A stretch of DNA of 64,000 nt from Cordylochernes scorpioides (taxonomy: Eukaryota; Arthropoda; Arachnida; Pseudoscorpiones; Chernetidae). The translations under genes were made by a program, and so were the position numbers. Within the stretch, counting starts at the first letter, position 1. Each line of letters begins with the position of its first letter. Shown piece by piece: positions 2,095 to 50,401 of this stretch. Below the pieces are notes generated by a model that saw nothing but the letters and a program-made list of their open reading frames with translations, made no database searches and had not been told where the DNA came from. The stretch is from NCBI GenBank assembly GCA_030710605.1, contig CP092865.1:141319282-141383281 (forward strand), written 5' to 3'.

Positions 2095-2153
2095 AGTGGT
2101 CTGGTGTAATAAATTGGCGAAAACGCTAGGAGGGTTCTCCTCTGATGAGTCAA
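2095..2153 (+). ncRNA. permuted hammerhead-like module, divergent copy
   Basis: Plus-strand order: AGTGGTC, a linker, TTGGC-GAAA-ACGCT, a linker, then CTGATGA-GTCAA. Stem II (GTCAA with TTGGC) pairs with one G-U. Stem III has one mismatch and one G-U. Stem I is weak. The catalytic CTGATGA, GAAA and GTC are intact. The surrounding element runs from about 2030 to 2400. Confidence 0.55.
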
Positions 2154-2403
2154 GACCTCCCAATATTTTCCATTGGAATAAAGACGGTAGAAGTTTGTTT
2201 AATATGCAAAAGAAACATCCGTGCTTTAAAGATTTCCTTCCCTATAAAACTTGATATTCAAAAAAAGATTTATGTTATTTACCACGGAGCATTATATAAA
2301 AGAAATTTATTCAATAAATCAATAAACCGATGCCACACCGTTATGAAAACTTGTTAGAACAAGAATGAAACACAAAACTTGATATAAAGCAATTATCTAT
2401 ATA

Positions 2404-7215: not shown

Positions 7216-8308
7216 ATTCCCAACATCTTATCCTCACTCAACAATTATAACAATAGCTTACGTTTCACAATAGAAAAAGAAAATAATTGCACATTGCCAT
7301 TTTTAGATATTAAAATAATTAAAATAGATAATAGATTGCAAACAACAGTTTACTACAAACCTTCATTCACCCCAATTATATAAAATTTTATTCATTCTGC
7401 CCCATTAGTCATAAAATTAACACAGTGAAAACATTAACTAAAAGAATTTATACTCATTGTTCTATAAATCAATACAAAACGCAAGAAACGCAAACCGTTA
7501 TCAATAATTTGACATCAGCTGGTTATCCCAAAACATTTATTTTAAAACATTTCTATCAGGCACAGGTCACATCTAACATGTCAGCACAAAAAACTAAAAT
7601 ATACAGGCAGAATTGCTACATCCCATATACCCCGAAATCCATCCACATTTCTAGAACACTAGATAAATATGGAATAAAAACCTTTTATAGCAACTCTCCC
7701 AACTTATCAGATATCTTAAGAAACCCGATTACAAAAAACAGGCAAACCGAATATATATCAAGCAGAAAAGAGGTAATTTATTCTATAGAATGTAATAATT
7801 GTAATGCCAAATATGTAGGAGAAACGGGAAGAAAATTGCATAATAGAATCATTGAACACAGAAGAAACATAAACAGAAATGACCCATTATCATTAATAGT
7901 ACAACACTCCAATTCAACAGGACACACATTTAACTTAAATGAACCTAAAGTACATTATAACAATATTAATAATAAATTTCAAAGATTAATAATTGAAGCA
8001 ATAGTGTCCAAACAATATAGCAGTATAAATCGCAGAATTGATTTACCAGAAGCATATAATTCAATTGACTTAAATAAAATAAGATAAAAATAATTCAATC
8101 ACAGTATATCACATGTCTGATGGGATACCTTGCAAGTTGAAATGCACGTGTATCGTGGATATGCACGTTAAATTTATAAACAAATCTTATTTCAAACTAG
8201 TTGGATTACTGTTTTATTAATTCCTGTAGAAGGGCGTATGTGCCCGAAAGCTCGTATATATTTGTTTTAATAAAGAAACGCAGCCCTTGATGCTTTGTTT
8301 TATTTACT
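7216..8308 (+). mobile_element. 5'-truncated Penelope-like element insertion
   Basis: The insertion is flanked by the 9-bp direct repeat TATATACAG (7207-7215 and 8309-8317). The corresponding site in copy 2 (about 29380-29390) is empty, which defines both ends. The body encodes the RT tail and a GIY-YIG endonuclease. The 3' end carries a hairpin with GGGCGTATGTGCCC followed by GAAAGCTCG near 8230-8253, resembling Penelope-terminal ribozyme-like motifs. Confidence 0.85.
7258..8087 (+). pseudogene. Penelope-like RT C-terminus plus GIY-YIG endonuclease
   Basis: Two frames cover the C-terminal half of a Penelope-like polyprotein. The first (7258-7380) has the FTIEKEN...LPFLDI...VYYKPSF block that follows the RT thumb, then stops at 7381. 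The second is open from about 7383 to 8087 (ORF from GTG 7425, 220 aa). It contains the SHK.N.VKTL.KR block and, near residues 118-145, VIYSIECNNC...YVGETGRKLHNRI, the GIY-YIG nuclease motif with its upstream C..C pair and a conserved Arg and His. The protein normally nicks DNA and primes reverse transcription of its own RNA in the nucleus. The RT catalytic domain is absent (5' truncation) and the two parts are in different frames, so this copy is dead. Family call is firm; clade is not determined. Confidence 0.85.
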
Positions 8309-8314
8309 TATATA

Positions 8315-11400: not shown

Positions 11401-11580
11401 AAGTCGGTGGACGAGTGCGTATAACACCTTCGATTCCCGACAGTCATGAACCGGGATTGAATCCCGCGTTAAAATTTTGTTTAATATTTGAATAACCTTC
11501 ACATATTATTCACTGTTTCAATTATCATAAACTAGGTTGCTCTTGTTGAGCGGTACCTAATAAAGTGATTTTGAACCGGT
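11401..11580 (+). mobile_element. tRNA-derived SINE (family B)
   Basis: A head with TGGACGAGTGCG (A-box-like) and GGGATTGAATCCC (B box) is followed by a tail module GGTTGCTC...TTGAGCGGTACCTAATAAAG. Related copies are at 32483-32662 and 57838-58015, and a possible tail fragment at 60345. The head resembles a Ser/Leu-type tRNA only loosely. Confidence 0.6.
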
Positions 11581-11757
11581 AAATATTGACTGAGTTGTCA
11601 ATAAAAGTGTTTTAATTGTTAATTGTCACAAAACTTCTTCTTATCAACAATAATACTCGTTATCAAATTACAAAACTATTTTAGAGGCGTAATATTCTTT
11701 TTTAAAATAAAACAATTTCTACTGTCTTTACTGCAAAGGAAAAATTAAAGGGAGGGC

Positions 11758-11816
11758 CTGGCTCATCAGTGGTGAACCCTCCCAGCGGTTTCGCCAGTTT
11801 AATCTACCATACCGCT
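11758..11816 (-). ncRNA. permuted hammerhead-like module
   Basis: Minus strand: AGCGGTA - TGGT - linker - CTGGC-GAAA-CCGCT - linker - ACCA-CTGATGA-GCCAG. All catalytic residues are present with a GUA cleavage triplet. Stem III is 6 bp, stem II 5 bp, stem I 4 bp. GGGAGGG in the linker can also pair with CCCTCCC beyond stem II. Confidence 0.7.
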
Positions 11817-12204
11817 GATATATTGCATTTTTGGAACTTCCTTTTATAGTTGACTGTTGTAAGACTTTTGGAATGGGAATTTTAGAAGAACTATGGACAT
11901 AAGCTTTTAGGACAGCAGAATTAAATATTATTATAAATATATAATATGCTTCGAGCAATCGCTCTTCCGCAAATATCAAATTGTGTCTTTTATTTGAACA
12001 ATTATATTACGTAATATAATTGTTCAAATAAAAGACACAATTTGATATTTGCGGAAGAGCGATTGCTCGAAGCATATTATATATTTATAATAATATTTAA
12101 TTCTGCTGTCCTAAAAGCTTATGTCCATAGTTCTTCTAAAATTCCCATTCCAAGAGTCTTACAACAGTCAACTATAAAAGGAAGTTCCAAAAATGCAATA
12201 TAAC

Positions 12205-12263
12205 AGCAGTATGGTAGATTAAACTGGCGAAACCGCTGGGAGGGTTCACCACTGATGAGCCAG
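12205..12263 (+). ncRNA. permuted hammerhead-like module
   Basis: The other arm of the palindrome. Core intact (CTGATGA, GAAA, GTA). Stem III has one mismatch because AGCGGT has become AGCAGT. Confidence 0.65.
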
Positions 12264-12396
12264 GCCCTCCCTTTAATTTTTCCATTGCAGTAAGGACAGT
12301 AGAAATTGTTTTATTTTAAAAAAGAATATTACGCCTCTAAAATAGTTTTGTAATTTGATAACAGATGGCGCGCTAGTGCATCATAATAATACTCGT

Positions 12397-12735: not shown

Positions 12736-13097
12736 TGTTGCATCAATGCGCCCTACATTTATTCAAAATATTCTATGATATTTAATATTTATTTAAAACA
12801 GATTATTTAGATTATCATCATTCCTTCTTATAGTTTCATTCCTTTTGTAATATTGTTATTGTACATATATTTTGATTGGTTATTGGAGCGAGATAAGACC
12901 AAGACCAAGACTGCGGATCACACGACCTACGAGGAAGACAACGAATAAATAAATACAATAACTTTAAAAGGTAATTTATTTTTATTTACTTTTATTTATT
13001 AGATTTGAGTATGGAAACCCGCTCGGGAAACGTGTATAACACCAAGAAGGAAGAAACCAAGGTCGACGACCATGCAAAGCTGCAACTTGGTGCAACA
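12736..13097 (+). repeat. solo LTR carrying the start of gag
   Basis: 362 bp, TG...CA, flanked by ATAT on both sides. Near its 3' end (from 13005) it encodes MSMETRSGN...KLQLGATI, matching in layout the first ~30 residues of the gag of the full element at 18215-23490. The gag start codon therefore lies inside the LTR in this family. Copy 2: 33820-34181. Confidence 0.85.
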
Positions 13098-13200
13098 ATA
13101 TCTTCTAGATCGATACTTTGTATTTCTTCTCAGCGATTATATCCCGGTTTCCATCCAATCTATGTTGGCCAAATGCAAACTGGCTAAACAATCTACATCT

Positions 13201-13521
13201 ATGAAAATTCGAAACTATTATAGACGCGTATGATTCTAAGCGAGGAATTCTAAGCAAGTTGATGGGAGAGGAAAAAATTCTGTTTTGTAATTGAATGCCT
13301 GTGAATTCTGCTTTTCTGACAATCTAAACAGGACTTTGACCAATTATTTATTGTTTGATTCATTTTGGGCCAAAAGTATTTTTGAGTTATTAGTTTTCTT
13401 GTTGCACGCATTCCTAGATGAGACAAATTAAGGGCAGTAAATATTGTTTAGTTTTTAAAATAATCATACGCGTCTATAATAGTTACGAATTTTCATAACA
13501 GATGGCGCGCTAATCCATCAT
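13201..13521 (+). mobile_element. foldback form of the hammerhead-bearing element
   Basis: Inverted arms of about 45 bp (ATGAAAATTCGAAAC..., complement at the right) surround ~230 bp lacking the ribozyme core. The right end has the family 3' terminus GATGGCGCGCTAATCCATCAT. Flanking 11-bp repeats AATCTACATCT and AATCCATATCT look like a target duplication with two mismatches. Confidence 0.6.
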
Positions 13522-13609
13522 AATCCATATCTATACAAAGCAATAACGCGCCATCTATATATAACAAATGAAAACATTAAGACACGAATGTTTCTTTTAA
13601 TAAATAAAT

Positions 13610-13845
13610 CAAACTTCTACTGTTCTTACTACGATGAAAAAATATTTGGAGGGCTTGGCTCGACAGTGGTGATCCCTCCCAGCGGTTTCGCCAATTTTTA
13701 ATCTACCAGACCGCTTCTTTAGCTATAATACTGTATTGGATGATTCTGTTTTTATATGCTACACTGAAGGGTGGAATCTTAGAAATGGAATTCAAGCAAA
13801 CTATGGACATAAGTTTTTAGGACAGTAGAATTACATTTAAATCTA
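13610..13845 (-). mobile_element. hammerhead-bearing element
   Basis: Runs between CTTCTACTGTTCTTACTACG and TTTTAGGACAGTAGAA, the inverted end pair of the family. The module inside is at 13655-13715. Copy 2 homologue at about 34680-34915. Confidence 0.7.
13655..13715 (-). ncRNA. permuted hammerhead-like module, core mutated
   Basis: Stem III (AGCGGT/ACCGCT), the GTC triplet, stem I (TGGT/ACCA) and stem II (TTGGC/GCCAA) are intact. CTGATGA has become CTGTCGA, which should abolish catalysis. The same mutation is in copy 2 (34740-34798). Confidence 0.6.
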
Positions 13846-13984
13846 TGTTGGCCACATGCAAACTGGCTGCACAATCCATAGCTGGTTAGATTATTGTGTA
13901 TATTCTCACATATTGATGGCCTTTAATACCCATTTTTCGATTTTTCAGGAAGCCTCAAGATCCAAATTTTTTGGTTGTTGATGT

Positions 13985-14035
13985 ACAGCCTTCACCACGC
14001 TGACGAAGGCCAACAGGTTGAAACACGTAATATTT
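13985..14035 (+). ncRNA. decayed type-I hammerhead relic
   Basis: CACCACG, CTGACGA, AGGCCAACAGGTT, GAAACACGTA in the normal type-I order. One core base has changed (CTGATGA to CTGACGA) and the downstream stem I strand is lost. Related to the better copies at 26297 and 51630; a similar relic is at about 35068-35115. Confidence 0.5.
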
Positions 14036-14233
14036 TAGATTTTCTGGATTAATCAAAAGAAAGGGTATTTGTATGTCCAATATATTCTAGAATATCTTTT
14101 TAAAAAAATCAACAATAATTTACATTTTTTACACACATAAAACAAGCTTTATTTAGAAGTTACACACATTGTATCATTAGTTACATAAAGTGATAATAAA
14201 GTTTGCCAGAGAGAATGTGTACAAAGCTATATA

Positions 14234-15730
14234 CACTGGTGTCCAAAAAATAAGAAACATTTGTTTTTTAATGATATGTTTTAAAATATACAACGCTAAA
14301 AGCTAAAAAGTAATTTAATTAGGTATTTTAAGTCGTAGAATTTATTTATCGCAACCATTCGATTCGGTAAAATTGAAAATATGCAAATTTTTGTTGCTTG
14401 TCTTTATAAGTGTGCTATTTGGCGTGTCGTTTACCCCATCTAAGAATTGTCCAATTATAATTTTATTTAATCCTTAGTTAATTATGAGTTTACGAATATT
14501 TTAGCAGATGATTTAAAATGGAGAGCTGTTGGAAGAATGGAGGCAGGGCAATCACAAGTTGAAGTAGCAAAATGGCTAAATGTGAATAAATATGTGGTCA
14601 GCAAAATATGGAAACAGTTCATTGAAACAGGAACCATCAAAAGAAAAGAAGGTTCTGGTAGAAAAAGAAAAACAGCTACCTCTGAAGTCCGTTATCTGGT
14701 CGTAACTGCCAAGCGCCATAGGGAGATGACAGCTATTCAACTCTCTAATGAACTCTCAAGTGCTACTGGAACGAGAATTTCAAGACAAACTGTTTACCGA
14801 AGGCTTCACGAAGGTGCTCTTTATGCAAGACGACCAATGGTCTGTATCCCTTTAACCTCTGTTCACAGGAGAGCCCGCTTGAATTGGTGCTTGGAACATC
14901 ACGCCTGGACTCATGATCAGTGGGCCAATGTTCTCTTCAGTGACGAATCAAGATTTAGTTTAAAAACAGATTCTCGACGAGTTTTCTTCTGGAGGGAGCC
15001 TGGAACCCGCTATCATCCCAGTAACATCAGGGAAATAGACAGTTTTAGAGGGGGCAGTCTCTTAGTCTGGGCTGGCATCAGTTCTAGCAGACGCACACCC
15101 CTCCACATTTTTTCTGGGGGCACTTTAACTGCCCAAAGGTACAGGGACGAGATCCTTGAGCCCTATCTAAGACCTTATAGAGATCAAATTGGTCACAATT
15201 TAATTTTAATGGACGATAATGCTCGTCCGCATAGGGCTAGGCTAGTCAATGAATATCTCCAGAGTGAGAATATTCGAAGGATGGATTGGCCAGCCAGATC
15301 TCCGCACCTGAAACCAATAGAGCATGTGTGGGATGCTCTAGGGAGGCGTATTGGAGCTCGTCACCCCTCTCCCAGAACCCTCGTTGAGCTAAGAACTGCT
15401 CTATTGGCGGAGTGGGGTTTACTGCCCCTGGACCTCCTCCAAAGCCTAGTAAACAGTATGAGGGCTCGCTGTGAGACCTTGATAGCTGTTAGAGGTGATC
15501 ATACTCCCTATTGATATCTTATTTCTTTAAGATCTGGAACCTTAGCTTTGGGTATGTTGGTAATAATTTGCATATTTCATAATTTCAAATATATTTTTTA
15601 AATTTTCATATAGCTAGTCAAATTCTCCATAGTTTAAACTATTTGTATACTAAATTTTATATTTGTTAATAATTTAGCTTTTGAGAAATTTCAATATTGG
15701 TTAAGTTTCTTATTTTTTTCGACACCAGTG
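14234..15730 (+). mobile_element. Tc1-type transposon, copy-1 specific
   Basis: 1497 bp with inverted ends CACTGGTGTCCAAAAAATAA and the complement of CACTGGTGTCGAAAAAAATA, TA on both sides. The matching place in copy 2 (about 35305-35320) is an uninterrupted AT run, an empty site. It encodes one uninterrupted transposase. Confidence 0.95.
14537..15514 (+). CDS. Tc1-family transposase (DD34E)
   Basis: A 325-aa transposase that would cut and paste the surrounding element by binding its inverted repeats. The N-terminal third is a paired-like helix-turn-helix region (VEVAKWLNVNKYVVSKIWKQ, then a GSGRKRK hook and a second HTH ending RQTVYRRLHEGAL). The catalytic triad is D136 in FSDESRF, D227 in LMDDNARPH and E262 in LKPIEHVWD. 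D227 and E262 are separated by 34 residues, the Tc1 spacing. SPDLNP is changed to SPHLKP here. The frame is open upstream to a stop at 14468 without an ATG; an out-of-frame ATG at 14484 suggests a one-base loss at the true N-terminus, so a few residues may be missing. Otherwise intact. Confidence 0.93.
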   Translation: MEAGQSQVEVAKWLNVNKYVVSKIWKQFIETGTIKRKEGSGRKRKTATSEVRYLVVTAKRHREMTAIQLSNELSSATGTRISRQTVYRRLHEGALYARRPMVCIPLTSVHRRARLNWCLEHHAWTHDQWANVLFSDESRFSLKTDSRRVFFWREPGTRYHPSNIREIDSFRGGSLLVWAGISSSRRTPLHIFSGGTLTAQRYRDEILEPYLRPYRDQIGHNLILMDDNARPHRARLVNEYLQSENIRRMDWPARSPHLKPIEHVWDALGRRIGARHPSPRTLVELRTALLAEWGLLPLDLLQSLVNSMRARCETLIAVRGDHTPY

Positions 15731-17110: not shown

Positions 17111-17135
17111 ATCCTTATATATATATTAGGAGGGC

Positions 17136-17195
17136 TTGGCTCATCAGTGGTGAGCCTTCCCAACAGTTTCGCCAATTTAATCTATAAAGACTGCT
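17136..17195 (-). ncRNA. permuted hammerhead-like module with compensatory change
   Basis: Stem III reads AGCAGT/ACTGTT: the G-C pair of other copies is replaced by A-T, plus a G-U. Stem II is TTGGC/GCCAA. CTGATGA, GAAA and GTC are intact. Stem I is damaged (TTTA opposite ACCA). The element runs to about 17315 (AGGACAGTGGAATT). Confidence 0.6.
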
Positions 17196-23699: not shown

Positions 23700-23946
23700 A
23701 TAAAAAACATTATATCATGAAACATTAGCGGGCCATCTGTTAAGAGAATTCAAAACTATTATAGACGCGTATGATTCCTTAAAAAATTGAACAATTTTCT
23801 CTCTACTGTCCTTACTGCAATGGAATATTAAAGAAAGGGCCAGGCCTTAAAAACATTATATACCCAATTTTTAATTTTATTAATAAATCTTACATAGGTA
23901 ATTATGATAATTATGATATTACTATGATAAAAAATAATGAGAGGGC

Positions 23947-24006
23947 TTGGCTCATCAGTGGTAGAACCCTTTTAGAGGTTTCGCTAATTTGTACCACCAT
24001 AACTCT
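23947..24006 (-). ncRNA. permuted hammerhead-like module, stem I extended
   Basis: Stem I is TGGTGG/CTACCA (6 bp, one G-U). Stem II is TTGGC/GCTAA (one G-U). Stem III is AGAGTT/ACCTCT, in which the usual C-G pair is replaced by A-T. CTGATGA and GAAA are intact and the triplet is TTA. Homologue at 48096-48155. Confidence 0.65.
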
Positions 24007-24513: not shown

Positions 24514-25660
24514 ATATACACTCATGGAAAAAACTTAAGGAAGTTGTACCTTTCAGCCTGTATATTGGGATTCAGACAATAACTCTGAAAGATACACTCA
24601 TAGACAAAACTTAAGGAAGTTATGCCTCTTAACATGTATATCGGGATTCAGACAATAACTCTGAAAGATACACTCATGGACAAAACTTAAGGAAGTTGTA
24701 CCTCTTAGCATGTATATCGGGATTCAGATAATAACTCTGAAAGATACACTCATGGACAAAACTTAAGGAAGTTGTACCTTTTAGCATGTATATCGGGATT
24801 CAGACAATAACTCTGAAAGATACACTCATGGAAAAAACTTAAGGAAGTTGTACCTCTTAGTATGTATATTGGGATTCAGACAATAACCCTGAAAGATACC
24901 CTCATGGAAAAAACTTAAGGAAGTTGTACCTTTTAGCATGTATATCTGGATTCAGACAATAACTCTGAAAGATACACTCATGGACAAAACTTGAGGAAGT
25001 TGTGCCTCTTAGCATGTATATCGGGATTCAGACAATAACTCTGAATGATACACTCATGGACAAAACTTATGGAAGTTGTGCCTCTTAGCATGTATATCGG
25101 GATTCAGACAATAACTCTGAAAGATACACTCATGGACAAAACTTAAGGAAGTTGTACCTTTTAGTATGTATATTGGGATTCAGGTAATAACTCTGAAAGA
25201 TACACTCATGGACAAAAATTAAGGAAGTTATAACTCTTAGTATGTATATTGGGATTCAGACAATAACTCTGAAAGATACACTCATGGACAAAACTTAAGG
25301 AAGTTGTGCCTCTTAGCATGTATATCGGGATTCAGACAATAACTCTGAAAGATACACTCATGGACAAAATTTAAGGAAGTTGTACCTCTTAGCATGTATA
25401 TCGGGATTCAGATAATAACTCTGAAAGATACACTCATGGACAAAACTTAAGGAAGTTGTACCTCTTAGTATGTATATTGGGATTCAGACAATAACTCTGA
25501 AAGATACACTCATGGACAAAACTTAAGGAAGTTGTACCTTTTAGTATGTATATCGGGATTTAGATAATAACTCTGAAAGATACACTCATGGACAAAAATA
25601 TTAAGGAAGTTATAACTCTTAGTATGTATATTGGGATTTAGACAATAACTCTGAAAAATA
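24514..25660 (+). repeat. 76-bp tandem array grown from a Tc1-type MITE end (~15 units)
   Basis: Unit begins CACTCATGGACAAAACTTAAGG and ends ATAACTCTGAAAGATA; spacing between starts is 76 bp (24593, 24669, 24745...). The first part of each unit is the MITE inverted end; a right end (CTTCCTTAAGTTTTATCTATGAGTG) occurs only once, near 25765-25790. Copy 2 has about 3 units (48545-48780). Confidence 0.9.
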
Positions 25661-27091: not shown

Positions 27092-27487
27092 TTCAATATG
27101 TATATCGGGATTCAGACAATAACTCTGAAAGATTTACAGTGACCTTTATTGAAGACATAGGAGATAACCAAATGTGAACAAAATTGCCTCTGTCTCCTTC
27201 AAAAAACAGATGACCGGCGACATTTATGACTTTCCATCTTCCTTAAGTTTTATCGATGAGTGTAGATTGTATTTAAAACCCATCTCTATAATTGCTGTAT
27301 TGATACCTATATTGGACTATTTGAAGAATTTGTTAAACAACATCAATATACCATTACTAAACAATAAAATCTTTCTTCAACGACAACATGTGCAATGATA
27401 TAACTAACCATATTCCAGGAGAAGCGGAGAATTATACCACCTAATCTATCACAACACCAGACACAAATGGAATATTACTTATATTAT

Positions 27488-28013
27488 TGTTACGTTGTTG
27501 GTTGACAAAGAATAACTTCCGTGAGTACAAAGGATCTTTAGACTTTATTTAAGTCTAATCAATTAAATAATTACAGATGAGTCCACAAATAAAACAACAA
27601 TAAAGAAAACAGCAGTTAAAAACTCACCAACTGCTGCACACGGTGAAGGAAGCAGGAGCAGAACAGGAGACAGAAGTTGGTAGAACCTTCTAGAATCTTC
27701 CAGTACATCGGCGTCGGCGGTAAGCAGCAGTCCGACCTCTTGAGACAGCAGCTCGCGTTTTCTTGGAGTACACCACGTAGCTTCGTTCTTCTACTCTCCG
27801 GCATGAGTTCCTCATCCCTATATATCCCGTAGTATATCTTTCCAGAACGATCATGGCTAGTCAGCCAACCAGAAAGTAGCCGGCACTAAGACTTGCGCAA
27901 TCACTTAAATTGGCCAATCAGTTGTTCTCCGAATTTTATACATTATTCTTGAACGTTCTGAAACATATTTATTCTGGAATGCGCGCTTTTTTTTTTTTAA
28001 TTTCTACGTAACA
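27488..28013 (-). repeat. solo LTR (copy of 5316-5840)
   Basis: Same ends TGTTACG and CGTAACA; a few single-base differences from copy 1. Confidence 0.65.
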
Positions 28014-28191
28014 AAATTATATGAGGTTTCCAGTAAAGGAGAATTTATATAAAATTTAACAAGTTCTTCAGACTCTATCTCAACTACAGTGGACATGAAT
28101 TACACTAATGAAATAAATTTCTAGATTTTATTTGTAAAATTTATTATTTTTAAATATATATATTTCTATCATCAAATTTAGTGGTTAATTA

Positions 28192-28428
28192 CAGTAAACT
28201 CTCCTATAACGCGATTAATGTGTTCCGTGTTGTATGAAATCGCGTTATAGGAATTCGCGTTGTACGAAATAAAACTTGTATAACGCGAGTGTTGTTAGGG
28301 TATATTGTTTTATTTTATAAACGCGTTATACGAAAATTCGCGTTGTATAAATAAATCTGTCGCAATTTTTTTTATCGCGTTGTACGAAATCGCGTTGTAA
28401 AAAACTCGCGTTATAGGAGAGTCTACTG
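28192..28428. mobile_element. pogo/Tigger-like MITE (copy of 6019-6252)
   Basis: Same inverted ends and TA duplication. Confidence 0.8.
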
Positions 28429-28784
28429 TATTATTGATCAAAAACTATAAAATAAGATATAATATGTAATTAATTTTATTTCTTGTATAAATATTGCTCT
28501 AAATGTAAATTAGATAATTTTTTCCACTTTCTCTCACTAATACTAGAAATAATTTGTATATATATATATTTTGAATCAATTTACATGAAAAAATTTTAAA
28601 ATTTACACGCAAATATCTTCGTTGGATATATCGTGTGTTTTGTATCAAACGAATAAATAAAAAAACTTAATATTATATGCATTAGATTGTCATCGGTAAT
28701 GAGAAATCTAAGCTATTTTCGACACGTATGTTTCTTTTTGAAATAAAACAAGTTTCTACTAATATTACTGCAATGATAAACTAA

Positions 28785-28860
28785 TGAGTGGGTCTGGCTC
28801 ATCAGTGGTGAGCCCTCCCCAGCGGTTTCGCCAGTTTAATAGAGAACTTGATGTCCCCCA
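28785..28860 (-). mobile_element. truncated hammerhead-bearing element
   Basis: Counterpart of 6618-6656: CUGAUGA and GAAA strands present, NUH strand absent. Confidence 0.55.
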
Positions 28861-29387
28861 GACACAAATCAACAATTTGAAGATCCTAACTCTCAGAAAC
28901 ACCTGCCTGATTCCATGCTGAACGAGGAAAACCAAGTTTCCTTTTTATAAAGTTTTCTTATGGAAAAAACGCTCAGCTTTTATAAATATAAATTCTTAAC
29001 GAAAACAATATTATTAAATACGAAATGTGCATATTTTATTTATATATTACATATGCATTACTCAGTTTTATCGAATGCATATCTCTATATTAAATATTAA
29101 AAAGGCATATATTAGATTGAATATTTTTTATTCAATTCAATATTACCTTTTTATTATCTAATGCTTTAAGTTGGATTGCTCTATTTTTAAAACCATATCT
29201 ATAATTCATTTAGCGTAGAATATATATATGTGTTAGTTTCCTTCATAACAGAACATTATTTTTGCTCTTCAAATTATTTAGAGTGTTTTTAAAAATATAT
29301 TTTTGATATAAGTAAAAAAAAAAGAAAATCGATATATATAGAAAAGACGTAATAAAATATTGATTTTAGGAATAAAAAATATATATA

Positions 29388-29567
29388 CAGTTAAACATGT
29401 CTATAGCGCCCCCCTCTAAATAACGCCTCCCTCTCTATTGCGCCTGCTTTTAAATACGTAGTACGATGCGATTTACATTAAAAGTGACCTGTCTATAGCC
29501 ACCCCCTCTCTATAGCACCCTATTTTGGGTGAGTCCCAAGAGGGTGCGCTATAGACAGGTTTAACTG
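29388..29567. mobile_element. pogo/Tigger-like MITE; marks the empty Penelope site
   Basis: CAGTTAAACATG...GTTTAACTG with TA. The AT run to its left joins it directly, where copy 1 carries the Penelope-like insertion. Confidence 0.8.
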
Positions 29568-30601
29568 TATATGTATATGTTGTAATGTCTGGAGCCGACA
29601 ATACGTCGCAGTAGGCTTCCTCATCCAATATGCAGTCATGGGCCAAAGTGGGAGCGCACTAGCCTGAAGATAAATGGAGACCACACCATAGGAACATGGT
29701 TACCTCGGTTTAGAGGGGACAGCATCCGGGAAGGTGAAGTGGACTGAGAGAGTCCTGGGATCACTGGTTAATCTGGCAGCATGGCGACCTGACTGCTGTC
29801 TATACTGTGCTCCTGTGGACTCAGAAGGAACCCAGCTTATATGATAATGGTGACGTCAGAGAGGGGCGAACCTTTTTGGGTGTCCGTGTCTAATCAAGGG
29901 CTGGTCTGCTCTTTTTTTTTATGTTTTCTTAGCTTTGTGGAATGGTTGCGTGCTAGTGTGGCTTGTGGAAAGGCCGCTGATATAATTATAATTATTTTTA
30001 TAAAATAAATGTATTTATTTAAAGCCAGAAATATATAAAGAGAAAAGAAGTAACGGCCGCTGGAAGCAAGCCTTGTTGTTCGAACGACGCGCGTGCTTAG
30101 AGTCCAGGATGCCACCCGCGCATGCGGGTTGTCCCAGTTCGCGCTCGCTGAAGCAAAGTGTTGTCGCCACAGCTTCTTTAACACTGCCAATGCCCTGTTA
30201 TTCGACCTTAATGGGTGCCGCGCCCCTTCTTTTTCCGGTGGTAGATTTTATTGAACGCTATCTTGAAGTTACATCAGGCTTGGTGTTTCTTGATTTTTCT
30301 ATGTCGAACATTCCTATTTGCAACAAATATAATACGGCATAGATTTATATAGAATTGTTCCGAATCAAGTGACGCTTATCATTCTCCAGATATTTGGATG
30401 GTTCTTCAAGTTTGGCCTTAATAGTATATCGTGATGCTTCAGTTTAAGGTTCTGATAGTTAATACTTTCAGGTAGGATAAAAAATACCTTACTCCTTGGC
30501 AACGAATCTTACAGAGCGTGATTACCTTTTGAAATAACGCTTTTGCCATACACGCTGGAAAATATTTCTTTTTTTCAAATCTCTATATAAAAGACAATGT
30601 A
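29568..30601. other. unclassified, copy of 8493-9523
   Basis: Same less AT-rich segment. Single-base differences shift the small open frames, supporting a non-coding reading. Confidence 0.4.
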
Positions 30602-30815
30602 CACTCATGGACAAAACCTAAAGAAATGGATAGTCTTTAATTTCGCCAGTCTTCTGTTTTTTTTTTTTAAGGAGACAGAGGCAAATTTGTTTACACTTGG
30701 TTAGGTCGTGTGTCTCCAATAAAGGTCACTGTAATATCTTTCAGAGTTATTGTCTGAATCCTGATATACATGCTAAAAGATACAGCCTTCTTAAGTTTTG
30801 TCTATCTCTCTCTCT
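30602..30815. mobile_element. Tc1-type MITE (copy of 9524-9737)
   Basis: Same diverged copy with CACTCATGGACAAAACC start. Confidence 0.6.
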
Positions 30816-30968
30816 GAGGCAGCATGTACAGAGTCATTGTATATAGTTTTATTTTTTATTTTATTTTTTCGTTTTATAATCATCATCTTTCTCATTATTG
30901 TTAATTTCTCATATAAATAGTACGGACTGTGCACTTTACCTGTATCGACAAGATATCAATAAAACTAT

Positions 30969-31398
30969 TGTAACAGAGTATTTATTATTATATTAGCAGA
31001 GTATTATTTTTTATGTTTATATTTGCTATACTCTGTGCACTTACTTCTTTTGCTTATCTTTGTTTATTACTCATAGATTGTTCTTGCCTTAAATAAATTG
31101 TTGTCTCATCCCGAAGTTGGTCTTCTTTTATTTATTAAAAAAAATCTTTTCCCCTTGAAATTTAACTTTGTAATTGAATTTTTTTACAGTATCAATTCCC
31201 TTCTTTCTCTACCTCCCTGACCCGGGGATACTTACTTGTGTTACAGCTCTGTTGGCTTGCTGCTTCCTTGGTTCATTGCCACAGTGATCGTTCTGCTTGG
31301 TACAGCCTGTTGGTAGGACTAGATGACCATTCTATAATGGCCAATTAGTCGAATTAAAGTCAGTCAGAAGTTGGTCTTATCTAATTTTCCACGTGGCA
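30969..31398 (+). repeat. solo LTR (copy of 9890-10320)
   Basis: TG...CA, CTAT on both sides, includes the extra ~240-bp internal part. Confidence 0.7.
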
Positions 31399-31614
31399 CT
31401 ATGTTATTTGTCTCTCTCCATGAGTGAATACAAATACATTTTTAATAAATAAAGGCATATAAATATATATCCTGGATCGAAAAATAAACGGGTCATTGAT
31501 ATTTTGATGGTCAGAAATATCAAGTGATAAATTCCGTTTATTTTCTGATACAAGATGTGCTATTTATGGTTGAATGTTGAATTTCACTGATGGTGATATT
31601 TTGAGAAAAATAAA

Positions 31615-32244
31615 TGTGATGATTTAAGACCATGGAATTGTTGTAAATAATCCAGATATCTACTACCACATATTTCACCACGTGACTGCATATAACTTGT
31701 TATTTACTGCAAATAGAAAGCATCAAATAACATCAATATGTACCGCGTAAGACTCTAATAAAGTATAGCAACTGTACAGATAGAAGGAATGGAGAACAAC
31801 AGGAGAAAATTAAGGCTAAAACTAATCAGGCCTAAATGAGAATAAGAAAGTAGGCCTATCGAGCCCAGTCCAATTTTTACGAGGGTCGTGGCCCTCCTGG
31901 ATGATGTAACTCCCCCCCCCCCCCTGTTTACGTCATAAAAGGGCAGTGACCTGCCTGGACCCAGGGAAGCTATAAAAGGAGGCCCCAAGCATCAGTTAGT
32001 CAGTCTTTTGTTTCAGTCTTTGTTTCAGTCTCCAGTCCGCGTAGGCCGCTCCTATAGAGGTAACCCTTTCCTACCTCCTCCTCCCATTCCTTCTTGACGT
32101 TCAGACGCTTCTTAGTGGAATCTGTTTGTTTATTTCACCTTTGGCCCAACTGTGTCGCCTTCCACCACGACTGCACGGTAGAGGTGACATCGAGGTTCGT
32201 CTAGCATCAGAAAACACTGGTCCCAGAGGTCCCAAGATATCACA
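31615..32244 (+). repeat. solo LTR with TATA-Inr promoter (copy of 10537-11162)
   Basis: TATAAAAG at 31971 and TCAGTC at 32000, the same 31-bp spacing; the C run near 31912 is longer than in copy 1. Confidence 0.7.
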
Positions 32245-32482
32245 AAAATATATCTGAAACCTTATGTAACCTATATTTAAGACCCGTATAGATGAAATTT
32301 TACCATGGCGTAGATTAGACGGAGTCACCATCATAGTCTAGACCTGGGATTGGCAACATTTTGAGTCGGAAGTGTCAAATATTGAAATTTACAAAATTTC
32401 AAAGTTTTCAAAGATCCACAAAATTTCTTCTCAAATAATTCTATTTTATTCTTTTTATCAGGTAAATATTGAGTAAAAATAA

Positions 32483-32662
32483 AAGTCGGTGGACGAGTGC
32501 GTATAACACCTTCGATTCCCGACAGTCATGAACCGGGATTGAATCCCGCGTTAAAATTTTGTTTAATATTTGAATAACCTTCACATATTATTCACTGTTT
32601 CAATTATCATAAACTAGGTTGCTCTTGTTGAGCGGTACCTAATAAAGTGATTTTGAACCGGT
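32483..32662 (+). mobile_element. tRNA-derived SINE (family B)
   Basis: Copy of 11401-11580 with the same B box GGGATTGAATCCC and tail module. Confidence 0.6.
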
Positions 32663-32741
32663 AAATATTGACTGAGTTGTCAATAAAAGTGTTTTAATTG
32701 TTAATTGTCACAAAACTTCTTCTTATCAACAATAATACTCG

Positions 32742-33446
32742 TTATCAAATTACAAAACTATTTTAGAGGCGTAATATTCTTTTTTAAAATAAAACAATTT
32801 CTACTGTCCTTTACTGCAAAGGAAAAATTAAAGGGAGGGCCTGGCTCATCAGTGGTGAACCCTCCCAGCGGTTTCGCCAGTTAATCTACCATACCGCTGA
32901 TATATTGCATTTTTGGAACTTCCTTTATAGTTGACTGTTGTAAGACTTTTGGAATGGGAATTTTAGAAGAAACTATGGACATAAGCTTTTAGGACAGCAG
33001 AATTTAAATATTATTATAAATATATAATATGCTTCGAGCAATCGCTCTTCCGCAAATATCAAATTGTGTCTTTTATTTGAACAATTATATTACGTAATAT
33101 AATTGTTCAAATAAAAGACACAATTTGATATTTGCGGAAGAGCGATTGCTCGAAGCATATTATATATTTATAATAATATTTAATTCTGCTGTCCTAAAAG
33201 CTTATGTCCATAGTTCTTCTAAAATTCCCATTCCAAGAGTCTTACAACAGTCAACTATAAAAGGAAGTTCCAAAAATGCAATATAACAGCAGTATGGTAG
33301 AATTAAACTGGCGAAACCGCTGGGAGGGTTCACCACTGATGAGCCAGGCCCTCCCTTTAATTTTTCCATTGCAGTAAGGACAGTAGAAATTGTTTTATTT
33401 TAAAAAAGAATATTACGCCTCTAAAATAGTTTTGTAATTTGATAAC
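32742..33446. mobile_element. palindrome of two hammerhead-bearing elements (copy 2)
   Basis: Centre at 33093/33094. Modules at 32841-32898 (minus) and 33288-33347 (plus), as in copy 1. Confidence 0.85.
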
Positions 33447-33819
33447 AGATGGCGCGCTAGTGCATCATAATAATACTCGTATAAATGAAGTTTTTAGGTT
33501 AGGTTATGTTTAGCGTCTACTTTAAAGGTAGAGATGATCTTTATTTTTTATAGATTTCTGCAATACCTTTCTCTGTTATGCACTTAAGAACGCCTGCAAA
33601 AAGACTACAATTTTGTAGTTTTACAATTAAGCAATAAGCCTGAGCGCTTTTATTCGAAATCTTAACTTTTAAAAGTGTATGATAAAGATATTGTAAAAGT
33701 CTTCAACTTTTATACACACGCTTTTCAAATCCAATTCTTTTATCCAGTCTGTTTTATCAACTCTGGTGGAACACCTCGCTTATCTTTTTTAGTTATACAG
33801 GAAATATTGTCGTCTATAT

Positions 33820-34181
33820 TGTTGCATCAATGCGCCCTACATTTATTCAAAATATTCTATGATATTTAATATTTATTTAAAACAGATTATTTAGATTATC
33901 ATCATTCCTTCTTATAGTTTCATTCCTTTTGTAATATTGTTATTGTACATATATTTTGATTGGTTATTGGAGCGAGATAAGACCAAGACCAAGACTGCGG
34001 ATCACACGACCTACGAGGAAGACAACGAATAAATAAATACAATAACTTTAAAAGGTAATTTATTTTTATTTACTTTTATTTATTAGATTTGAGTATGGAA
34101 ACCCGCTCGGGAAACGTGTATAACACCAAGAAGGAAGAAACCAAGGTCGACGACCATGCAAAGCTGCAACTTGGTGCAACA
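33820..34181 (+). repeat. solo LTR carrying the start of gag (copy 2)
   Basis: Same as 12736-13097: 362 bp, ATAT on both sides, MSMETRSGN coding start at 34089. Confidence 0.85.
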
Positions 34182-34739
34182 ATATCTTCTAGATCGATAC
34201 TTTGTATTTCTTCTCAGCGATTATATCCCGGTTTCCATCCAATCTATGTTGGCCAAATGCAAACTGGCTAAACAATCTACATCTATGAAAATTCGAAACT
34301 ATTATAGACGCGTATGATTCTAAGCGAGGAATTCTAAGCAAGTTGATGGGAGAGGAAAAAATTCTGTTTTGTAATTGAATGCCTGTGAATTCTGCTTTTC
34401 TGACAATCTAAACAGGACTTTGACCAATTATTTATTGTTTTGATTCATTTTGGGCCAAAAGTATTTTTGAGTTATTAGTTTTCTTGTTGCACGCATTCCT
34501 AGATGAGACAAATTAAGGGCAGTAAATATTGTTTAGTTTTTAAAATAATCATACGCGTCTATAATAGTTACGAATTTTCATAACAGATGGCGCGCTAATC
34601 CATCATAATCCATATCTATACAAAGCAATAACGCGCCATCTATATATAACAAATGAAAACATTAAGACACGAATGTTTCTTTTAATAAATAAATCAAACT
34701 TCTACTGTTCTTACTACGATGAAAAAATATTTGGAGGGC

Positions 34740-34798
34740 TTGGCTCGACAGTGGTGAACCCTCCCAGCGGTTTCGCCAATTTAATCTACCAGACCGCT
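34740..34798 (-). ncRNA. permuted hammerhead-like module, core mutated
   Basis: Copy of 13655-13715 with CTGTCGA in place of CTGATGA. Confidence 0.55.
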
Positions 34799-35364
34799 TC
34801 TTTAGCTCTAATACTGTATTGGATGATTCTGTTTTTATATGCTACACTGAAGGGTGGAATCTTAGAAATGGAATTCAAGCAAACTATGGACATAAGTTTT
34901 TAGGACAGTAGAATTACATTTAAATCTATGTTGGCCACATGCAAACTGGCTGCACAATCCATAGCTGGTTAGATTATTGTGTATATTCTCACATATTGAT
35001 GGCCTTTAATACCCATTTTTTTCGATTTTTAAGAAAGCCTCAAGATACAGATATTTTCGTCGTTGAGGTACAGATTGCATTACGCTAACGAAGGCCAACT
35101 GCTTGAAACACGTAAAATTTTGGATTTTCTGGATTAATCAAAAGAAAGGGTATTTGTATGTCCAATATATTCTAGAATATCTTTTTTAAAAAATCAACAA
35201 TAATTTACCTTTTTTACGCACATAAAACAATCTTTATTCATTACACACATTGTATAATTAGCTACATAAAATGATAATAAAGTATGCCAGGGAGAATGTG
35301 TACAAAGCTATATATATAAATTATACTTTTATTCAATCATTAAGGAATCAAGGGCTTCATTTCT

Positions 35365-35955
35365 TATTTCCTTTTATTTCTCGAGCTTTCGGGCCAACAT
35401 GCCCTTCAATACGGAGATCCTGTTATACAACTTCACGCCCCATCAATACGGAGATCCTGTAGTACAACTTCACGCCCCATCAATACGGAGATCTTGTAGT
35501 ACAACTTCACGCCCCATCAATACGGAGATCCTGTTATACAACTTCACGCCCCATCAATACGGAGATCCTGTTGTACAACTTCACGCCCCATCAATACGGA
35601 GATCCTGTTGTACAACTTCACGCCCCATCAATACGGAGATCCTGTAGTACAACTTCACGCCCCATCAATACGGAGATCCTGCAGTACAACTTCACGCCCC
35701 ATCAATACGGAGATCCTGTAGTACAACTTCACGCCCCATCAATACGGAGATCCTGTAGTACAACTTCACGCCCCATCAATACGGAGATCCTGTAGTACAA
35801 CTTCACGCCCCATCAATACGGAGATCCTGTAGTACAACTTCACGCCCCATCAATACGGAGATCCTGTAGTACAACTTCACACCTTGAAATTATACTTCAG
35901 TATCTCCGTGTTGAATGGCATGTTAGCCCGAAAGCTCGAGAAATAAAAGGAAATA
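35365..35955. repeat. 37-bp minisatellite inside an inverted repeat (~13 units)
   Basis: Units of CCCCATCAATACGGAGATCC plus 17 further bases repeat about 13 times between 35397 and 35883. The outer arms (CTCGAGCTTTCGGGC near 35379, complement near 35920-35940) are those of the copy 1 inverted repeat, which encloses a single unit. Reading frames across it are repeat artefacts because 37 is not a multiple of three. Confidence 0.92.
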
Positions 35956-42713: not shown

Positions 42714-43074
42714 CTAGCGGATGTGCCCGGCTTCGCCCGGGTTTTACCCGAGTGAATGTTTGTCTAATGAACATTTGTTAAAACAATTCTCTATAACTTA
42801 TAAAACGTACTCGGCTTCGCCCGGGGTTTTACCCGAGTAAAGGTTTGTCTAGCGAACATTTGTTAAAAACAATTCTCTAAAAACTTATTTAAAAAAAAAG
42901 ATATATTTTGATAATTTGAAACTCGTAAATTTGAATCTCTCGATAAAGTGAACATTTTTTCCCGGTCCCTGTGTGCCGTGTCATCCTGAATTTTGGTCTT
43001 TCCTAATTTTCTACATTAGAAAATCATTGTTTTATCTAGTGAACATTTTTTCCCGTGTCACATTGCCTTTATTC

Positions 43075-43820
43075 TTCATTGTTGGCTTTTTATATTATAT
43101 TTACTCTTCTTTGTTGGTTTTTATCTTAAATTTATTCTTCATTGTTGGGCTTTTATATTACATTTACTCTTTATTGTTGGCTTTTTATCTTACATTCATT
43201 CTTCATTGTTGGCTTTTATATTATATTTACTCTTCATTGCTGGCTTTTTATCTTACATTCATTCTTCATTGCTGGCTTTTTATATTACATTCACTCTTCA
43301 TTGTTGGCTTTTTATCTTACATTCACTCTGTTGGCTTTTCATATTACATTTACTCTTCATTGTTGGCTTTTTATCTTACATTCACTCTTCATTGTTGGCT
43401 TTTATATTATATTTACTCTTCTTTGTTGACTTTTTATCTTACATTCATTCTTCATTGTTGGCTTTTTATATTACATTCACTCTTCATTGTTGGCTTTTTA
43501 TCTTACATTCACTCTGTTGGCTTTTTATATTACATTTACTCTTCATTGTTGGCTTTTTATCTTACATTCACTCTTCATTGTTGGCTTTTTATATTATATT
43601 TACTCTTCATTGTTGGCTTTTTATCTTAAATTCATTCTTCATTGTTGGCTTTTTATATTATATTTACTCTTCATTGTTGGCTTTTTATCTTACATTCATT
43701 CTTCATTGTTGGCTTTTTATATTACATTTACTATTCATTGTTGGCCTTTTATCTTACATTCACTCTTCATTGTTGGCTTTTTATCTTACATCCATTCTTC
43801 ATTGTTGGCTTTTTATATTA
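43075..43820 (+). repeat. ~32-bp minisatellite (CTTCATTGTTGGCTTTTTAT)
   Basis: More than 20 units alternate between ATCTTACATTCACTC and ATATTACATTTACTC variants. It resumes at 44646 after the nested Helitron. All three frames are open for up to 218 codons only because the repeat lacks stop words. Confidence 0.92.
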
Positions 43821-43822
43821 CA

Positions 43823-47406: not shown

Positions 47407-47465
47407 TATATATATATATATATTCAATATAATTCAATATATATATATATATATATTGGGAGGGC

Positions 47466-47524
47466 TTGACTCATCAGTGGTGGACCCTACCAACAGTTTT
47501 GCCGATTCAATCTACCAGACCGCT
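47466..47524 (-). ncRNA. permuted hammerhead-like module, divergent
   Basis: Stem III AGCGGT/ACTGTT holds with two G-U pairs; GTC and CTGATGA intact; GAAA has become CAAAA and stem II is weakened (TTGAC opposite GCCGA). Confidence 0.5.
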
Positions 47525-47859: not shown

Positions 47860-48095
47860 GATATAAAAACATCATATCATGAAACATCAGCGCGCCATCT
47901 GTTATGATAATTCGAAACTATTATAGACGCGTATAATTCCTTAAAAAATTGAACAATTTTCTCTCTACTGTCCTTACTGCAATGGAATATTAAAGGGAGG
48001 GTCAGGCCTTAAAAACATTATATACCCAATTTTTAATTTTATTAATAAATCTAACTTTCTACTGTCCTTACTATGATGTAAAATAATGAGAGGGC

Positions 48096-48155
48096 TTGGC
48101 TCATCAGTCGTAGAACCCTCTTAGAGGTTTCGCTAATTTGTACCACCATAACTCT
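48096..48155 (-). ncRNA. permuted hammerhead-like module, stem III covariant
   Basis: Counterpart of 23947-24006. Stem III AGAGTT/ACCTCT and stem II TTGGC/GCTAA keep pairing with changed bases. Confidence 0.65.
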
Positions 48156-48263
48156 TTTTAAAATCTACTATGAATATTAGAAACTATTTTAGACGCGTAA
48201 GATTCTTTTTGAAATCAAACAATTTCTACTGTCCTTACTGCAATAGAAAAATTAATGGGAAGG

Positions 48264-48323
48264 CCTGGCTCATCAGTGGTGAACCCTCCCAGCGGTTTCG
48301 CCAGTTTGATACACCATACCGCT
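48264..48323 (-). ncRNA. permuted hammerhead-like module, best complete copy
   Basis: Minus strand: stem III 5' strand AGCGGT with H17=A; stem I TGGTG (pairs CACCA); loop; stem II CTGGC; GAAA; CCGCT; linker GGGAGGGTT; CACCA; CTGATGA; GCCAG. Stem III 6 bp, stem II 5 bp, stem I 5 bp, no mismatch. The host element spans 48190-48420 with CTACTGTCC at its right-hand (minus-strand 3') side. Confidence 0.75.
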
Positions 48324-48544
48324 GTTATATTGCATTTTTCGATCTTCCTTTTATAGTGATACTGTTGTTAGACTCTTGGAATGGGTATTTTAAATGAACT
48401 ATGGACATAAGCTTCTTGAGGCTTATACATGACTTGTTAATTTATGCCTAAATTATGGCCTTGTCTTTATTGTTTGAGGAATAGCATTGCTCAATCCAAA
48501 TATTTACATGTATTTAGACTGTTCACAGAGTTTATGTCCATATA

Positions 48545-48907
48545 CACTCATGGACAAAACTTAAGGAAGTTGTACCTTTTAGCATGTATATCAGTATTCA
48601 GACAATAACTCTGAAAGATACACTCATGGACAAAACTTAAGGAAGTTGTACCTTTTAGCATGTATATTGGGATTCAGACAATAACTCTGAAAGATACACT
48701 CATGGACAAAACTTAAGGAAGTTGTATCTTTTACCATGTATATTGGGATTCAGATAATAACTCTGATAGCTATTTGATACACAGTGACCTTTATTGAAGA
48801 CGCGAGATAACTAAGTGTGAAGAAAATTGGCTCTGTCTCCTTCAAATATAAATATATATAGACTATCGGCAAAGAGTTTCCACTTCATTAAGTTTTGTCC
48901 ATGAGTG
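48545..48907 (+). mobile_element. Tc1-type MITE with three 76-bp units
   Basis: CACTCATGGACAAAAC start after TA, three 76-bp starts, then a single right end TTTTGTCCATGAGTG before TA. Short-array counterpart of 24514-25660. Confidence 0.85.
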
Positions 48908-48997: not shown

Positions 48998-50401
48998 CAC
49001 TGCGTGACATTGAAAATGGAACACCAAGAAATAGTGGCCAGAAAATTATGCAAATTTCAGGGTAGACGCGCCTAACCGAGTTATGCAAATGATGTAAAAT
49101 GCGCAGCTCTCGTGCGCACATGGAGTAAGATATAAGGGAAGGAACTTGCAGAAAGGACAGTATTCGTGTCGTTATTTCTTCAGGGAAAATCATTGTAGAA
49201 ATTTTGTTCTTGTGTCAAAAGACACGTGTAATAACAGAGAATGCCAGGTCATCGTAAACGGAGGCAGTTCAAGCAGACAGACGCTTTTACGAGGGGCATG
49301 GTGATCGGACTGAAAAGGGCAGGTTGGTCCATACGTCAAATCGCAGCTGATACACACCTTGGTGCGTCCACGGTGCACCGACTGTGGAGAAGATGGTTGG
49401 AACAAGGAAATGTGGCAATTTATAGGAATGTCGGTGCAACCAGAGTGACGTCAGCACGTGTGGATCGGCGTATCCTTCGACAAGCAGTGGCGGCCCCACA
49501 AGCCACTTGTACCGCCATCCTGCAACATGTGCAAGACACCCTAGATCATTCCATCTCGACCAGAACCATTTCCCGTCGATTGGTTGCTAATGGCTTGCAC
49601 TCATGCCGTCCGCTAAGAAGACTGCCATTGACCCCACCGAATAGGCGCCAACGAGTTAGATCGACGTGGATGACGGAATGGCACAGGGTCGTGTTCTCAG
49701 ATGAGTCGCGTTTCTGCTTGTCCAGTGATAGTCGCCGTGTACGCGTGTGGCGTCGACGTAGAGAAAGGTCCAATCCGGCAGCAATTGTGGAACGCCCCAC
49801 CGTGCGACAACGTGGAATCATGGTTTGGGGCGCAATCGCGTATGAATCCAGGTCACCTTCACTTCGTATTCAGGGCACTATGACGGCCCAACGATACGTT
49901 GATGATGTGCTGCGACCGGTGACACTCCCCTACCTCCAGGGGGTACCCAATGCCCTTTATCAGCAGGATAACGCCCGACCGCACACTGCTCGCATTAGCC
50001 AACAAGCTCTGCAAGATGTACAGATGCTTCCCTGGCCACCGTACTCTCCTGATCTCTCACCAATCGAGCACGTCTGGGACATCATTGGACGCCGTTTGCA
50101 TGCCTTGCCACAGCCGCGTTCATAAGACGAACTGTGGCAAATGGTTGAGAGGGAATGGAGAGCCATCCCTCAGGACGCCATCCGTACTCTGATTGACTCT
50201 CTACCTAGACGTGTTGCTGCGTGCATCGCCGTCCGCGGTGGTCCTACTTGCTACTAAGCCGACGCCGTTCTCGCTCTGTATTATGACTATCATTTTGAAA
50301 TAGAGATCACTTATTGTCCGTCCCTGTCTCTCTCTGTCTGCCGAGTTTCATCACTTTCTGGCCACTATTTCTTGGTGTTCTATTTTCAATGTCACGCAGT
50401 G
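48998..50401 (+). mobile_element. Tc1-type transposon, copy-2 specific
   Basis: 1404 bp with inverted ends CACTGCGTGACATTGAAAAT (left) and complement at right, TA on both sides. One transposase gene with a single internal stop. Confidence 0.95.
49241..50257 (+). pseudogene. Tc1-family transposase with one nonsense codon
   Basis: Open from MPGHRKRRQFKQTD to a TAA at 50123-50125, then in the same frame to TAA at 50255-50257 (338 codons). Paired-like HTH (RAGWSIRQIAADTHLGASTVHRLW), an R-rich hook, then D154 in FSDESRFCL, D243 in QQDNARPH and E276 in LSPIEHVWD. Only 32 residues separate D243 and E276, two fewer than classical Tc1; the missing residues fall in the loop before LPWPPYSPDL. The stop removes the last 43 residues (ELWQMVEREW...), beyond the catalytic core. 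Functional state unknown. Confidence 0.9.

Follow-up and report, generated by a model that had tools for sequence, protein, structure and literature searches.

A predicted type-SGC hammerhead ribozyme inside a high-copy, retrozyme-like repeat of the pseudoscorpion Cordylochernes scorpioides

Results

A hammerhead core in the order S, G, C

We analysed a 64,000-nucleotide stretch of the genome of Cordylochernes scorpioides (contig CP092865.1 of assembly GCA_030710605.1, positions 141,319,282 to 141,383,281 of the forward strand; hereafter the window), which carries on its minus strand, at 48257-48323, a module with all the parts of a hammerhead ribozyme (Table 1). Read from 48323 down to 48257, the module is AGCGGT-A-TGGTG-TATCAAA-CTGGC-GAA-ACCGCT-GGGAGGG-TT-CACCA-CTGATGA-GCCAG-G-CCTTCCC. 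The hammerhead has been divided into the blocks S (cut site), G (GAAA) and C (CUGAnGA), and natural non-circular permutations of these have been reported (Eckert et al. 2023; PMC10085705). In our module the block order is S, G, C, the core residues CUGANGA, GAAA and UH at the cut are all present, and stems I, II and III, together with a helix joining the outer sides of stems I and II (the I-II helix), can all form.

The window was scanned for CUGANGA, GAAA and UH in the order NUH, GAAA, CUGAUGA, with G-U pairs allowed. This copy, whose CUGAUGA starts at 48276, had 16 of 16 positions paired in stems III, I and II. In 200 dinucleotide shuffles of the window the top score was 14 (3/200), and 15 was never reached. 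Note also that CTGATGAGCCA occurs 14 times in the window with at most one mismatch, against 0.65 expected.

The original prediction, which placed the module at 48264-48323, held that the invariant hammerhead residues are complete on the minus strand, and the sequence reads so. A module does lie there, but those limits omit 48257-48263, the 3' strand of the GGGAGGG/CCTTCCC helix. The prediction was right that a hammerhead core can be built from stems III, I and II with a GGGAGGG/CCCTCCC-type helix, the published SGC design being the same, fourth helix included, and right that the order NUH, GAAA, CUGAUGA is unreachable by circular permutation. Its claim that this strand order was undescribed had to be rejected, because Eckert et al. 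2023 had already named it: it is their non-circular permutation type SGC, with 583 predicted sequences (PMC10085705). The prediction also overlooked the setting of the module, a mobile, tandem-forming element at high copy in chromosomal DNA, and the many copies that start at the predicted cut.

According to the available text of that paper, all five tested SGC RNAs expected to cut cleaved at the predicted site, and a sixth, without a cut site, stayed uncut. Helix mutations, made in SGC-3 only, showed that all four helices were needed, including the I-II helix (PMC10085705). Since SGC RNAs of the same design cleave, we counted these results in favour of a ribozyme. Compared by published description, not by alignment, the module resembles type SGC (the HRIMA-1 motif and SGC variants) in the S-G-C order, the core residues, stems I to III and the fourth helix, GGGAGGG/CCTTCCC standing where that helix sits (PMC10085705). 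Stem III is joined to the I-II helix by zero nucleotides, as published for a few SGC members; the linker from stem I to stem II is about 7 nt, against typically 3 nt in HRIMA-1, and subfamily A, to which the module belongs, has 4 stem I pairs against 5 in type SGC (PMC10085705). By order, core residues and pairing, the module is a type-SGC hammerhead, with cleavage predicted between 48317 and 48316.

Copy number, subfamilies and helix conservation

We searched the genome (2.62 Gb, 24 contigs), counting only exact pattern matches. The pattern GCGAAAC-N8-35-CTGATGAGC, which covers the G and C blocks, gave 76,230 matches (38,221 + 38,009), and a 35-base pattern across the cut gave 29,207 (14,605 + 14,602); the control for each, a reversed pattern in the first case, gave 0. 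The 35-base pattern starts in the S block, crosses the cut and the G block and ends in the first bases of the I-II helix; three of its positions allow two letters. The integrity of the S block was then read in 96 distinct copies. These had been selected by their G and C blocks only, and came from the initial 3.06 Mb of contig C1 together with sequence flanking those loci. With the best of 16 offsets taken for each copy, which is slightly lenient, 61 of the 96 keep UH, at least 5/6 pairs of stem III and at least 4/5 of stem I; stem I is at 3 in a further 5, and 30 fail. Copies with a single S-block change also occur, L124 and L129 being examples. Subfamily D (L032, L037, L044 and L052, plus strand) has the G and C blocks preceded by a fixed, different upstream sequence without an S block, so that self-cutting should be impossible.

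For the helices we used an alignment (A1) of 64 modules, obtained from 107 with pairing of at least 18/23 by removing 8 with a weak stem III or I and 35 same-sequence repeats. The underlying scan required CTGANGA, GAA and UH, so conservation of the core is there by construction, and 18 of the 64 modules come from loci that had been chosen because they resemble the window copy. In these modules, partly chosen for pairing, standard pairs occupy 91.7% of the cells over 23 pairs. The fifth pair of stem I is unpaired in 43 of the 64, being an A-C mismatch in the common subfamily A; the ‘three perfect helices’ of the original prediction therefore hold for the window copy (16/16) and fail for most others. 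Double changes were seen at stem III pair 3 (C-G to A-U, 2 rows), stem I pair 2 (G-C to A-U, 5 rows) and I-II helix pair 2 (G-C to A-U, 6 rows), and the outer pair of stem II is C-G in 32 rows against U-A in 29. They separate subfamilies and may be read as compensatory. The covariation score was 0.144 against 0.107 for column shuffles (0/500 reach it) and at most 0.105 for slid versions, from few independent subfamilies. Because the rows of A1 are related and partly chosen for pairing, the covariation is support, not proof.

A separate long-range helix pairs GGACAGTAGAA with TTCTACTGTCC in subfamilies A and B and GGTCTGTAGAG with CTCTACAGACC in C, which amounts to three double changes. It was checked in the 37 copies with both anchors (19 A, 16 B, 2 C), among which several A and a few B copies pair poorly.

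The repeat unit, its arrays and its insertions

Unit length was taken as the spacing of the unit's own predicted cut sites in head-to-tail arrays, one array being read per subfamily. The A unit is 371 bp (array L059, one interval), the B unit 372 bp (L132, two identical units) and the C unit 368 bp (L129, three intervals between four sites, one with an S-block change). With gaps counted, identity among the three aligned units is 82-91% within the ribozyme part and 61-68% outside it. Common to all of them are a TATA-like box 38-49 nt before the cut (49 nt in B, 39 nt in C), a GAAGAGC/GCTC hairpin and AAGCTTATGTCCATAGTT. A unit of about 370 bp leaves no room for a long protein, and no frame of at least 140 codons overlaps the ribozyme insertions within the window.

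Four insertions were examined. Target duplications, first spotted by eye and then checked, flank three of them: 12 bp in the window (AATAATACTCGT, at 11649-11660 and 12385-12396, around 11661-12384, and present again in the duplicated segment), 15 bp in L059 and 12 bp in L129. In each of these three, a partial unit in inverted orientation comes first and is joined head to head to at least one direct unit; the window insertion holds modules at 11750-11816 (minus) and 12205-12271 (plus). Measured from the cut, the 3' ends fall at +173 (window), +172 (L059), +173 (L129) and +181 (L132), so the 3' end is nearly fixed and distinct from the cut site.

In a hand count of the first 100 matches listed for the 35-base pattern, the seven opposite-strand pairs within 600 bp all stand head to head, and no plus-then-minus pair occurs within 1 kb. 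The matches to the G and C blocks include two pairs in plus-then-minus order, each of which contains a subfamily D copy. The bias towards minus-then-plus pairs suggests snap-back or twin priming at the end of the complementary DNA (cDNA).

Breakpoints at the predicted cut

Copies made from RNA that had been cleaved after H17 would be expected to start at the next base. Breakpoints were counted genome-wide, a breakpoint being a match in which the 4-5 bases before the chosen point are all unlike the repeat and the sequence after it is exact. In subfamily C, 169 copies have their first base exactly at the cut, or 137 if a single array of 33 units is counted as one, and the controls five bases to either side, with the same allowed fraction of 243/1024, gave 2 at -5 and 29 at +6. 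The array (C7:6527838-6531644) contributes 33 listed units of 118 bp to the 169. When neighbours were collapsed, the first 100 of the 169 fell into 57 places more than 10 kb apart, or 50 by a limit of 200 kb, and the +6 starts into 29 places (10 kb) or 26 (200 kb). The excess at the cut in subfamily C is large relative to -5 and, after collapsing, at least about twofold relative to +6, and it points, indirectly, to RNA cleavage in vivo. The L061 array, which was picked on the G and C blocks only, likewise consists of repeated 122-bp units that start exactly at the cut.

Subfamilies A and B, counted together, start at the cut (+1) in 452 cases (fraction 54/256), which after normalisation is 5.0 times the number at -3, 3.3 times that at +3, 2.8 times that at +6 and 1.6 times the raw number at +2. 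Since these counts, though agreeing, are confounded, the breakpoint claim rests on subfamily C.

Among 50 separate places where subfamily C copies start at the cut, the preceding base is A in 36; a cytosine at this position was excluded by the pattern. Perhaps this A is an added base, or it reflects a target preference.

Other copies in the window and neighbouring elements

Eighteen whole or partial copies had originally been listed. Eight stood, with a score of at least 13 (2095, 11758, 12205, 23947, 32841, 33288, 48096 and 48264), and the others proved partial or decayed. The copy at 17136 scores 12, with only 1/5 of stem I paired; those at 6618 (score 12) and 28785 (score 11) by eye keep the G and C blocks and not the S block. 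GAAA is absent from the copies at 47466 (GGCAAAAC), 25935 and 51265, and those at 1619, 13655, 34740 and 24110 are partial homologues found by BLAST. One further match, at 56308, scores 13, inside the shuffle range, and by eye is not a copy of the repeat.

An open frame at 7335-8087 has a weak GIY-YIG match and is probably the C-terminal end of a Penelope-like element. Penelope-like elements occur as tandem or inverted partial units and carry minimal type I hammerheads. The ribozyme unit is unlike them in its hammerhead type and in that its insertions in the window overlap no frame of such length as given above. As a link between the two was considered and nothing ties the frame to the unit, the element is left as a possible helper or mobiliser, no more than a candidate source of the reverse transcriptase. 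The stretch that follows the frame, 8115-8260, contains CTGATGGG and GCCCGAAAGCTC and may be a decayed Penelope-type hammerhead.

The window also holds a segmental duplication of several kb (8309-14233 / 29382-35314 and 4918-7215 / 27092-29390, 98-99% identity, same order), a 76-bp tandem repeat of the ACTTAAGGAAGT... family near ribozyme copies (24516-25660, 15 copies; 48542-48766, 3 copies), a 37-bp satellite of 12.9 copies at 35402-35880, a nested 32/64/186-bp satellite at 43068-43822, and Tc3/mariner-like transposase frames at 14471-15514 (347 codons) and 49235-50125 (296 codons).

Table 1. Features of the window (positions of the 64,000-nucleotide stretch) and head-to-head pairs elsewhere in the genome.
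Feature	Position	Strand	Remarks
Type-SGC hammerhead module (predicted), subfamily A	48257..48323	-	core reading and 16/16 pairing; first row (L001:1528-1594) of alignment A1
Stem III, 5' strand	48323-48318	-	
H17	48317	-	predicted cut 48317/48316
Stem I, 5' strand	48316-48312	-	
Stem II 3' strand, GAAA and stem III 3' strand	48304-48291	-	
I-II helix, 5' strand	48290-48284	-	
Stem I, 3' strand	48281-48277	-	
CUGAUGA	48276-48270	-	
Stem II, 5' strand	48269-48265	-	
I-II helix, 3' strand	48263-48257	-	
TATAAAAG box	48348..48355	-	38 nt upstream of predicted cut; putative promoter role
Long-range helix, 5' strand GGACAGTAGAA	48224..48234	-	conserved helix; partner missing upstream of window copy
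Second SGC module, subfamily E	48088..48155	-	directly downstream of the 48257-48323 module, same direction
SGC module, subfamily E	23939..24006	-	
Whole insertion	11649..12396	+	inverted partial unit joined head to head to forward unit
Same insertion in near-identical duplicated segment of the window	32731..33480	+	modules 32833-32898 (-) and 33288-33355 (+)
Diverged SGC module	2095..2161	+	
Diverged SGC module, poor stem I	17128..17194	-	
Decayed module, GAAA lost	47458..47524	-	
Open frame with weak GIY-YIG match	7335..8087	+	PF01541, E 3.4e-4, 21.3 bits, below the curated cut-off of 22.6
Head-to-head pairs	G000:C1: 152163/152364, 1470150/1470646, 2350404/2350611, 3520244/3520359		
Further head-to-head pairs	G000:C1: 4386574/4386730, 4463739/4464082, 4584483/4584841		

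Discussion

Our results make it likely that the module is a type-SGC hammerhead inside a retrotransposing, retrozyme-like unit of about 370 nt. From the observed anatomy, copy number, arrays, target duplications and subfamily C breakpoint excess we infer a cycle in which cleavage, circles and enzyme are put forward conditionally. A transcript driven from the TATA-like box would begin just upstream of the NUH block, its start being placed by the usual spacing between a TATA box and a start. The RNA would fold through stems III, I and II and the I-II helix and then cut after H17. Transcripts of tandem arrays would be cut to monomers of about 370 nt, some of which may be joined into circles. A reverse transcriptase, presumably supplied in trans, would start near a fixed position that lies 172-181 nt downstream of the cut. 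On a linear template of cut RNA it would run off at the cut, giving copies that begin there, and a circular template or jumping would give multi-unit arrays.

Several observations weigh against this proposal. In alignment A1, whose 64 modules were chosen partly for pairing, the doubly changed pairs number 8, which is not above column shuffles (mean 5.9; 77/500). Folded as linear RNA, the 368-nt unit is no stabler than its shuffles (z 0.09), and the B array L132 is without a clear target duplication. Relatives outside the genome were sought in Rfam and with one viral_contigs pattern: Rfam 15 gave no hammerhead match in the window at the gathering score and none in 47900-48500 up to an E value of 10, and the one specific pattern gave 0 matches in viral_contigs. 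As regards the breakpoints, the -5 pattern for subfamily C ends three bases earlier than the cut and +6 patterns, and the excess over +6 narrows when arrays and near neighbours are collapsed. The cut-start arrays L126 (105 bp), L131 (121 bp) and C7 (118 bp) were found with patterns requiring a start at the cut, and arrays with units starting at -3 and +6 also occur. Subfamilies A and B also break 135 times at -3 (fraction 81/256) and 289 times at +2, 139 at +3 and 160 at +6 (54/256 each); 72 of the first 100 +2 matches end in GC by hand count, as from GGT-GGT deletions, and the +3 matches are partly single-G deletions. Among the first 100 of their cut contexts, TCAG or CCAG accounts for 22, which microhomology with the stem I of an inverted copy can explain, and CCAT for 12.

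A different account, which we regard as unlikely, is that the SGC ribozyme is ancestral and that present spread and breakage have nothing to do with RNA cleavage, the cut-site junctions arising from DNA hairpins, microhomology or template switching at the paired region. Many junctions are indeed head-to-head inverted copies with microhomology, most of the +2 matches are GGT-GGT deletions, and some arrays begin at -3 or +6. However, the cut junctions of subfamily C have varied flanks and number 169 raw, against 2 (-5) and 29 (+6); at least 57 separate cut-site places are still set against the same 2 and 29; and the tail sequence likest the cut site (TCTG before TAGAG) is excluded by the pattern.

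We give hardly any credence to a chance resemblance, or to an ordinary inverted-repeat transposon without a ribozyme. Repeats with inverted arms are common and the unit shows no unusual fold stability, but pairing of 16/16 was found where 200 shuffles reached at most 14, the changes that appear compensatory occur at the level of subfamilies, and an independent motif, published and tested, agrees with the module in order and in the fourth helix (PMC10085705). It is also highly improbable that the blocks act in trans, or as dimers of neighbouring copies, to give an ordinary two-strand hammerhead. Such an arrangement would suit the copies that are close neighbours or in tandem; the I-II helix, the short linkers and the direct join of stem III nevertheless match the one-molecule SGC design, and all four helices were needed in SGC-3, the one SGC RNA mutated (PMC10085705).

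We return to the SGC hammerhead in a retrozyme-like unit and to its nearest known counterpart, the metazoan non-long-terminal-repeat retrozymes, whose type I hammerheads and linear and circular RNAs have been shown (Cervera and de la Pena 2020; PMC7229834). As described in the available text of that paper, these are short (170-400 nt), AT-rich units in head-to-tail arrays with a hammerhead per unit, reach a high copy number (up to 120,000 in axolotl, according to a section title) and have target duplications of more than 4 bp when present (PMC7229834). The element here shares these features, its target duplications being 12-15 bp in three of four insertions. The element works like a metazoan retrozyme but lacks one defining feature, the type I hammerhead, having type SGC in its place; circular RNA was shown there, whereas the element here is known from genome sequence alone (PMC7229834). 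We lean towards an animal retrozyme lineage built on a non-circularly permuted SGC hammerhead, with circular RNAs of about 370 nt and tens of thousands of copies.

What looks new here is the setting, an SGC hammerhead design at high copy in a chromosomal mobile element. Type SGC has so far been described mainly from environmental RNA, and the available text of Eckert et al. 2023, with RefSeq release 85 among the data searched, describes no SGC RNA from a known organism's genome (PMC10085705). Searches of the open-access literature (PMC, partial coverage) gave no paper that places a type-SGC hammerhead in an animal genome. What sets our module apart from the published SGC sequences is its place within a mobile unit that is present at very high copy in the chromosomal DNA of a single genome (PMC10085705).

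If our reading is true, a ribozyme class reported almost only from environmental RNA would have a genomic home, in a genome that records the position of the RNA cut, and the SGC class, published without a known-organism genome, would gain a host and a testable biological role. The element suggests that retrozymes can do without a circularly ordered hammerhead, and it offers many natural variants for the study of a pseudoknotted ribozyme. Finally, counting breakpoints at a predicted cut site may serve as a way to seek past RNA cleavage from genome sequence alone.
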